NCBI GenBank assembly: GCA_007449985.2 | Contig: VIIQ02000669.1 | Coordinates: forward strand, 124,001-188,000 | Length of the DNA: 64,000 nt | Direction: 5' to 3' | Origin: Desmodesmus armatus | Taxonomy: Eukaryota > Chlorophyta > Chlorophyceae > Sphaeropleales > Scenedesmaceae | Shown here: positions 7,588-20,582 of the stretch, in pieces | How the letters are laid out: each line of letters starts with the position of its first letter | How positions within the stretch are numbered: position 1 is the first letter of the stretch | Program-made: the position numbers and the translations under genes | The notes under the pieces: generated by a model | Databases searched by the model: none | What the model was told of the DNA's origin: nothing | What the model saw: only the letters and a program-made list of their open reading frames with translations

Positions 7588-10500
7588 ATGCTGCGCCCAC
7601 CTCCAGCCCCGGGCACCAAGACAGACTACAATGCTCTCAGGGCTCCTGCCAACTATGTGCCAGGTCTAGGTCGTGGAGCCACCGGGTTCACAACACGATC
7701 GGATATCGGACCAGCTCGTGCTGGACCTGCAGGAGGAGAGGTGAGCAGTTGGTGCATGCGGGCCCATGCAGGATGGACCATGTGACATCCCCTTTCATTG
7801 CAGCATCAAAGCAGCGTGACTCCCAGAAGCATTGCTGGGTGTTCTACATGATTGCTGCATGCAATCTTTGCCAATCAGCAGCAAATGTCAAGTGTGGCTC
7901 GGGCTCATAGCATGCATTCGATGCACAACTCACATGAAGCTAAAAACTAGCCCACCAAACCAACAGGCAGCCTGGCAGCAACTGCCTGTGTCAGCACAGT
8001 GTGGTGCTGATGGACTGTGGGCCATCAGCAACACAAGGAGTGCGCTTTATGTTGGGCCAGTGCCTTGCCACATTTCCATAGCATTGTCCTGCATCAGCCC
8101 ATCCACTGCAGCAGCAACCGACCCATGGTGGCCACCAGGCAATTGAACTTGTGAGGCTGTTTCCTGCAATATGTTCTGAAGGAGTGCCACTCATTGTGCA
8201 CACATACACATACACACCACACTCCATTGGCCTACCATGCCAGCACCTGTCAAGCCAGCAGTTGGCGGCAGCATCACCCCATCATTGCCCTCCCCTCACA
8301 CCCCTTCCCTCTGCACGTCTCTGTCTGTGTGTGTGCATGTTGACATCGACAGTACCTAATCAATTGTTTGATATTGAACAGTAAGCTAATTTGACGTTAA
8401 GTTTGATCAGAACCAAACTCACTCGGAAATTTTGGAATGTGTGTGCCCCCTGCAGGGTGGTGAGGGTGGTGATGATGAGAACAAGTTTGATGAGTATTTA
8501 ACTCACTCAACTCACTCTAACTCACTCAAGCCACTCAAATTGTGTTTGAATCTGTGTGCTGCCTGCAGGGTGGTGAGGGTGGTGATGATGAGAACAAGTT
8601 TGATGAGTATTTAACTCACTCAACTCACTCTAACTCACTCAAGCCACTCAAATTGTGTTTGAATCTGTGTGCTGCCTGCAGGGTGGTGAGGGTGGTGATG
8701 ATGAGAACAAGTTTGATGAGTTCCTGGGCAATGATGCAGGCGTGTTTGCTGGGGGCAGTACGATGAGGACGACAAGGAGGCTGACAGGATCTGGGAGAGT
8801 GTCGACAACTTCATGGATGAGAGGAGGAGGGTGAGTCACTGAGCATGGTGATGGAACATGGCAGGGTTCAGGAACTAGGCCAGACCCTCAAACCCAAGGG
8901 TAGCACAACTAGATAACCACATGGGCGGTCAGGGTCTGTGGGAGCAGGGTGGTGCGGTGGTGTGTGGGGAGCGTCGAAGAGGGACGCGGGCACTGCTCAT
9001 TGTGCTCTGCCTTCATGTCAGTCTGACAGCAACAACAGTCTTCGGTGTCTGTTGCGTTGGCGGACAAAGTCAGGATGAGTCTTTCTTGCCAGCCTGCTGT
9101 GCTGTGCTGTGTCATTGCCCGGTGAAGAACTTTCTAGTGAGCTGATCCAGCAGGGCTCCCGGTGCCAACCAAAAAACAGCCCCATGCAGCAGCAGCAGCA
9201 CCAGCATTCAAACCCTCTAAACCCTCCCACCAATGCTCTGGGCCATCTAAACCCTGCCTGGTGTGTCCCCTGCTGCCAGCAGCTGCTGCCCTCAAAACCC
9301 AACCTGCATGCAAGCCAGCCCTCGGCTGTGCACGGCTGCAGGACAGGGTTTAGGGATGCTGGGCGGCAGGGTTTAGCCAGGCAGGGGGTCCAGCTGTGTA
9401 GGTGGCTGAGGGTTTAGGGGTGCTGGGTGCTGCCTGTGTGTGGGGTTGTGGTTGGCACCTCCCATGGCTGTGGATACAACACACCAGGCCTTACGTGGGT
9501 CCTGGTGTATGTGCTGAGTTTGAAGGCGAGTCTGAGGGCAGTGTGGTTGGTGAAGGATTCAAGCAGCTGTGTGGCTTGTGGCTGGCATTGTGAAGTGAAT
9601 GGCAGAGCAATGTTTGTGCGGTGTGTTGTACGGCAGAGAAGCACTCTTGCGGTTCTTGCGTGTAGTCTGCAGTTCCGTCACGTTGCAGTTCAGGGGCAGC
9701 AGGACTTGGACCCGGTTCCCTTAGGAACCAGTCACCCAAGTTTCTTGTCTCCATAGCCCCGAAAATAGCTAAGGTCTATGTGTCCCACAGGCATGCCAGT
9801 GGACACAGAGCTTGGCACAATCTTCCCTTGCCCTTCTCTTCCACTGCCCCCTTCCCTCCCCTGCTTTGTGTGTATCCTCTGCATGACGCGCCCGCCCTCA
9901 TATCTCCGGCCCCTGTGCCCTCCGCCTGCCTCCTCCCCTCCCCCTGCCTCCCCCGCTCCCCTTCCCCCTTGCAGGAGCGTCGTGAGCGTTTGATGAAGGA
10001 GCAGCTTGAGAAGATGCGTGCTGACAACCCAAAGATCACTGAGCAGTTTGCAGACCTCAAAAGAGACCTGGCACAGGTGAGGGGGGGGGGACACAGGGGT
10101 CAAGGTGTGTGTGTGTGTGGGGGGGGGGGGGGGGGGGGGTGTGGACACAGGAGGCGAAGGGGGTGGTGGGTACTGGGTAACATTGTGTGCAGCAGCAGCA
10201 GTGTTGCTGATTACACATGTCACAACACAGTTACACTTCCACACAAGAACTGAATGTGACACAGTTTGCACGAGACCTGGCACAGGTGAGGGGGAGAGGG
10301 ACACAGGGGTCAAGGGTGGGGGGGGGGGTGACACAGGAGGCGAAGGGGGTGGTGGGTACTGGGTAGCATTGTGTGCGGCAGCAGCAGCAGTGTTGCTGAT
10401 ACACACAGGAATTTGCAGTGCACACAGTTTGCAGACCTCAAGAGGGGGGACACGGGGGGGGGGGGGGGGTACTACAGTATCATCAGAAGCGGTAGCGCAG

Positions 10501-20582: not shown

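Follow-up and report, generated by a model that had tools for sequence, protein, structure and literature searches.

The question raised by this locus was why the introns of a PRP6 gene in a green alga contain many partial duplicates of the edges of its exons, and whether such copies are a device of this gene or the trace of a process by which introns grow. The stretch of DNA analysed here (the window) was 64,000 nucleotides long and corresponded to C637:124001-188000 of a 115.8 Mb genome in 831 contigs. The PRP6 gene model extended from start codon to stop at 7588..20582 on the plus strand with 18 exons and 17 introns. All 17 introns were GT-AG and 906 codons preceded the stop, while the introns totalled 10,275 bp with a mean length of 604 bp. 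The 906-aa product showed 92% identity over its full length to an unnamed protein of 906 aa, 84% identity at 99% coverage to the protein of Scenedesmus sp. PABB004 and 71% identity to that of Raphidocelis subcapitata, which places the organism among the green algae close to Scenedesmus. PRP1_N profile matches also supported the locus, and PRP6 is named STABILIZED1 in plants. In exon 2, 1 nt was absent from the G-run at 8751-8755 relative to the reading frame, and the assembled consensus is probably wrong at this point.

An echo is defined here as a short copy of a neighbouring exon edge inside an intron. BLAST of all PRP6 exons against all PRP6 introns (E ≤ 0.01) showed 20 significant echoes in 11 of the 17 introns (introns 1, 3, 4, 5, 7, 8, 9, 10, 12, 14 and 17). 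All 20 were same-strand copies of an adjacent exon; at this cut-off, matches to more distant exons or to the opposite strand were absent. Ten were donor-side and ten acceptor-side, with lengths of 14-85 nt and identities of 82-100%. Two or three weaker echoes were present in introns 10, 15 and 5. Introns shuffled with an order-1 Markov model gave 0 adjacent matches in each of 20 runs. The echoes are therefore real, and the original prediction of at least 22 copies in eleven introns agreed with the 20 significant and two or three weaker echoes found, in the same eleven introns. A second PRP6 copy as the source of the echoes was rejected since the PRP1_N profile search of the genome matched no locus besides PRP6, and DNA of exons 10-11 matched only G-rich sequence elsewhere.

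All echoes described below are on the plus strand. A 113-bp tandem array extended from the end of intron 1 to the start of exon 2 (8432..8721), where BLAST placed two echoes of the acceptor edge of exon 2 (8456-8495 and 8569-8608, 100%). The donor echo of the end of exon 3 in intron 3 (10272..10285, BLAST) carried approximately 120 nt of intron flank, with 10063-10217 copied at 10272-10405. A second echo of exon 3 (10425..10444) lay 13 nt short of the edge, and the echo of the end of exon 4 in intron 4 (10978..11010, 88%) lay 10 nt short. Intron 5 held an acceptor echo of the start of exon 6 (11921..11947, 96%, BLAST) and also a weak donor-side relic. Three BLAST echoes were located in intron 7, two of the end of exon 7 (12804..12847, 89%; 12929..12961, 94%) and one of the start of exon 8 (13270..13313, 91%). 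The first of these is likely a relic of a duplication of the whole of exon 7, because the tail of intron 6 at 12358-12424 was repeated at 12610-12676. In intron 8, a donor echo of the end of exon 8 had lost its GT (13684..13709, 96%), and BLAST showed acceptor echoes of the start of exon 9 in this intron (13997..14021, 84%) and of the start of exon 10 in intron 9 (14612..14634, 87%). Hairpin-like inverted repeats were spotted by eye in introns 9 (14400-14560) and 8 (13900-13950), the latter resembling a GTCACACTGA tandem repeat at 36823-36865.

Intron 10 contained the longest echo, a donor echo of the end of exon 10 (15092..15176, BLAST) with 85 nt and 9 differences, all at third codon positions. 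Two other donor echoes of the same exon end followed, one weak (15332..15353, E = 0.012) and one without its GT (15452..15473, BLAST), together with two BLAST acceptor echoes of the start of exon 11 (15507..15545, 82%; 15667..15718, 92%), of which the latter had 4 differences, all at third codon positions. BLAST also placed donor echoes of the end of exon 12 in intron 12 (16606..16651, 93%) and of the end of exon 14 in intron 14 (18291..18324, 91%), and an acceptor echo of the start of exon 15 in intron 14 (18689..18737, 92%). Intron 12 consisted mostly of a 730-bp AC microsatellite (16816-17548), the assembled length of which needs care. A candidate donor echo in intron 15 (19092..19141), an 82% copy of 19020-19067, was absent from the exon-only search results. 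Finally, intron 17 held an acceptor echo of the start of exon 18 (20182..20213, 94%) with 36 nt of intron flank.

Within the window, PRP6 was alone in this property as predicted. A total of 27 local duplications were detected, 2 were discarded as low-complexity, and 24 of the remaining 25 lay within PRP6. Other genes with interrupted coding sequence in the window included a glycosyltransferase (29.5-33.5 kb, plus strand), DNA polymerase alpha subunit B (24-29.5 kb, minus strand) and Hsp20 and SUMO-like genes (36-43 kb, minus strand). An unmasked exon-versus-gap BLAST on predicted exons was set aside, as simple repeats inflated its counts (54 distant matches in PRP6, 7 in the SUMO/HSP20 region, and 14 and 18 in two of the genomic stretches sampled below, L015 and L023); with low-complexity masking none were counted in L015, L023 or the SUMO/HSP20 region. 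Near-identical short coding stretches (ETSK.VLKKCSACKMVMYCSKDHQTAD), presumably a MYND-type zinc finger, were also observed in opposite orientation near the window ends (460-540 and 61627-61725).

To place PRP6 in its genome, 20 contigs were taken at even number steps and bases 20001-30000 were extracted from each, which biases the sample to contigs longer than 20 kb. Five contigs were too short, leaving 15 stretches with 142,764 bases, one of them of 2,764. Little coding sequence was predicted in L017, L022, L024 and L025. The original prediction had set against itself a scan with the same echo density in most genes, and this outcome was seen in part: 5 of the 15 stretches (L012, L016, L018, L019 and L020) held 2-10 short duplications with exactly one copy coding, while the other 10 had no such duplication, and L026 had zero echoes despite 21 predicted coding segments. 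L012 was a cullin gene with 19 echoes in 9 of 10 introns within about 8 kb; at the stricter threshold used here (E ≤ 0.001, against E ≤ 0.01 for PRP6) BLAST gave one match to a distant exon and none inverted. L018 encoded the PreP protease, for which 7 introns were modelled and 3 of them contained 5 echoes in total; its codon-position counts were discarded since the model runs out of frame from exon 6. Echoes were also present in a 5'-nucleotidase-family gene (L020), a U-box-like gene (L016) and a gene without identity (L019). Pfam scans of L016 (minus strand), L019 (plus), L020 (plus) and L026 (minus) placed no gene above the cut-off.

As a prediction test, the genome was searched for a donor followed by poly-G, which gave at least 257 sites compared to 44 for the reversed pattern, some of them in tight clusters. 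Two clusters, chosen by eye among the sites listed, both proved to be donor-echo arrays. In C81, the end of a Tic110 exon had five additional copies at spacings of 102-113 bp, and in C74 one exon end of a pyruvate kinase gene recurred in 14 additional copies. The echoes are thus not special to PRP6, and with the same echoes in unrelated genes (cullin, PreP, 5'-nucleotidase-family, Tic110 and pyruvate kinase) a PRP6-specific device falls.

Several other features were observed in the sampled stretches. The minus-strand exons of the 5'-nucleotidase-family gene had several apparent 1-nt slips, as from consensus errors, for example at a C-run where the intronic echo carries one more C. A dispersed element of about 100 bp in cullin intron 6 (L012:5136-5240) had at least 42 genome matches, with 40 of 205 candidates scored, and 44 nt of PRP6 intron 5 (11524-11567), between TG repeats, were read by eye as part of it. 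Dense diverged direct-repeat arrays without a predicted coding copy (L014:1-2615, L014:6103-9335 and L022:188-2086) were excluded from the echo counts. Direct repeats at kilobase scale were found in L024:1-10000 (99.8% identity, 7.0 kb aligned) and L025:3503-9927 (98.2% identity, 4.6 kb aligned), and these are either recent tandem duplications or assembly errors.

The anatomy of the echoes pointed to local events. Successive copies were spaced 79-551 bp apart with a median of 169 bp. In all 7 introns holding both kinds (PRP6 introns 7, 8, 10 and 14; cullin introns 5, 7 and 10), donor echoes were all 5' of acceptor echoes, as expected if each exon edge was duplicated locally. Some duplications included intron flank (PRP6 introns 1, 3 and 17), and in some pairs (cullin introns 5 and 7) the exon part was 96-97% identical where the intron flank was no longer alignable, which counts against the explanation favoured below. 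Differing ages, copies adjoining their source and the order in 7/7 introns uphold the proposal of many separate exon-edge duplications and intron growth. The same order rejects haplotype concatenation: with two haplotypes or strains joined end to end inside introns, acceptor copies would come first and donor copies second, the opposite of the order observed. Such an artefact would fit an imperfect assembly, as seen in the slip of 1 nt within exon 2 of PRP6 and in the kilobase-scale tandem blocks of L024 and L025 (98.2-99.8% identity), and the differences look partly allelic; but the number of copies per edge ranged from 1 to 14 and their identity from 79 to 100%, the sampled loci contained no N and the neighbouring genes in the window were clean, and we regard it as highly improbable.

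None of the 39 echoes of PRP6 and cullin covered a whole exon, compared to 5.5 expected for random units of the same lengths (P = 0.0015; two genes, with the echoes of one array not independent). Hence no echo was a tandem exon duplication, with a complete exon and both splice sites, although one such duplication around PRP6 exon 7 has possibly left a decayed relic. That whole exons are missing among the copies points to a tolerance of half-exons, presumably because splicing pairs sites across exons.

G- or C-runs of at least 8 nt were concentrated in the PRP6 introns, with 31 there, 0 in the exons and 8 in the other 50.8 kb of the window. G-runs were mainly near donors and C-runs more often near acceptors. 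Over 21 tiles, run density tracked the density of all short duplications, coding or not (Spearman 0.71, P = 0.0003). Runs lay within 20 nt of 7 of 29 breakpoints compared to 3.4 expected, which is no clear mark, and they are not claimed as breakpoint markers.

The splice sites copied along with the exon edges were then considered. In PRP6 and cullin, 35 of 39 echoes reached to within 6 nt of the exon edge and 4 ended short of it. GT or AG was kept at 16 of 18 PRP6 and 14 of 17 cullin echo edges (30 of 35 together), and many of these sites scored like the true site. Splicing at any of the 8 PRP6 donor echoes extending to the exon edge would introduce at least one stop, and splicing at the acceptor echoes would shift the frame in 8/10. 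Poison exons of splicing factors yield unproductive splicing, and the predicted premature stops and frame shifts resemble them. Because PRP6 is a core spliceosome protein, the echoes had been proposed as decoy splice sites whose unproductive transcripts would let PRP6 regulate its own level. However, the echoes were not limited to splicing genes, occurring in cullin, PreP, Tic110 and others, and the two acceptor echoes of intron 10 (15507 and 15667) were predicted to add 96 or 42 in-frame codons with no stop. Divergence was 6.4% in the exon part (104/1637) and 14.6% in the alignable flank (67/460), and the survival of GT and AG is about what a divergence of 6-15% leaves by chance, so there was no sign that echo sites are kept. 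Self-regulation through decoys was thus unsupported, and we consider it very improbable.

The codon positions of the differences between echo and exon gave a less uniform picture. For an echo that drifts beside a constrained exon, a third-position share of about 46-50% was expected by our own estimate. Differences at codon positions 1/2/3 were 9/8/41 for PRP6 echoes, 16/18/37 for cullin echoes and 16/4/36 for four further loci, where the best echo per coding segment was used. Pooling the three sets, 114 of 185 differences were at third positions (P = 0.001 against 50%), a total in which several echoes of one edge are each counted; edges with one echo only, to which this does not apply, gave 31 of 45 (P = 0.008). 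The extremes were 9/9 (PRP6 15092), 4/4 (cullin 3772) and 7/7 (L020 7537). This excess above the expected share argues against plain drift, and some of the divergence resembles change that accumulated while the sequence was still coding. At edges with several echoes, where changes could be assigned, positions 1/2/3 had 16/16/25 changes on the echo side and 1/1/6 on the exon side. These assignable changes are close to the simple drift expectation, which indicates that the echoes are mostly unconstrained.

Two readings have been weighed for the third-position excess. If the echoes were alternative coding exons under selection, the excess and the intact reading frames of several echoes would be accounted for, but 0/39 covered a whole exon, joining donor echoes to the exon body would require new splice sites, and the PRP6 proteins of relatives, when compared, had no extra segment at the echo junctions. 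This reading appears extremely improbable. On the other hand, unequal crossing-over between diverged alleles would produce a copy that differs at silent sites from birth, and capture of another allele's exon in this way would give coding-like divergence. The excess with its extremes and the arrays with many copies are in favour of such an origin. Against it, echo-side changes were spread nearly evenly over codon positions and the mean third-position difference of approximately 13% in PRP6 and cullin (78/597 sites) is high for alleles of one species, so that an allelic origin is possible but doubtful.

Overall, the echoes are best explained by recurrent local tandem duplication across exon-intron boundaries, with most copies decaying as passengers while introns grow, to which we assign a probability of roughly 0.78. 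Each event would be a tandem duplication or an unequal crossing-over of roughly 80-300 bp. A unit taking in one exon edge would leave a half-exon with a single splice site, and this may be ignored by splicing if sites are paired across exons, while a full-exon duplicate would enter the spliced transcript and be purged. Introns rich in G- and C-runs might perhaps be prone to duplication, and if so this could explain why echo-full genes lie beside echo-free neighbours. A tentative and less probable extension of recurrent duplication is a self-sustaining engine of intron growth in a class of genes of this alga, in which unequal crossing-over between alleles would add edges, the copies would seed further mispairing and only half-exons would survive exon-paired splicing.

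Introners are dispersed families that place repeated sequence in the introns of many genes within an organism. The echoes share repetitive intron content across many genes but differ in that they copy their own gene. When PRP6 14787-15940 was searched against the whole genome, it matched itself and gave 30 other matches, all in the G-rich query part 125-299, and no single family dispersed over many genes was therefore seen for this region. Introner elements are named among intron-gain models in the text available for PMC4974935, where tandem duplication across an intron-exon boundary is described as a route to a new intron in potato RdRp. There, as here, one intron-exon boundary was crossed and the splice site was copied along; but the available account (PMC4974935) concerns one new intron in one gene, whereas here introns already present were extended, repeatedly within a gene and across many genes. 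Tandem duplication of whole exons is also well known, and in mutually exclusive exons, as far as the accessible part of PMC9013439 describes them, exon sequence is likewise duplicated locally into the neighbouring intron; those copies are whole and spliceable, in contrast to 0/39 whole copies here. Among the titles and abstract openings searched, with most subscription papers outside reach, none described introns packed with copies of exon edges. We regard the echoes as a form of a mutational process already known, here on a remarkable scale.

In the related Tetradesmus obliquus, the mean intron length is 462 bp, against 604 bp in PRP6, with 7.8 introns per gene, and four other species in the same table have mean introns of 230-302 bp, according to the available portion of PMC5966456. 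With respect to the origin of intron sequence, part of it in the present genome is visibly copied from neighbouring exon edges. Long introns are usually attributed to transposons. In each gene with echoes, a true donor or acceptor shares its intron with near-identical rivals, be it one or many, which makes the choice of the spliceosome between equal sites directly testable. If the tentative engine of intron growth holds, this genome would serve as a natural library in which near-identical splice sites compete beside the true ones. The echo arrays may also be places from which new introns arise.
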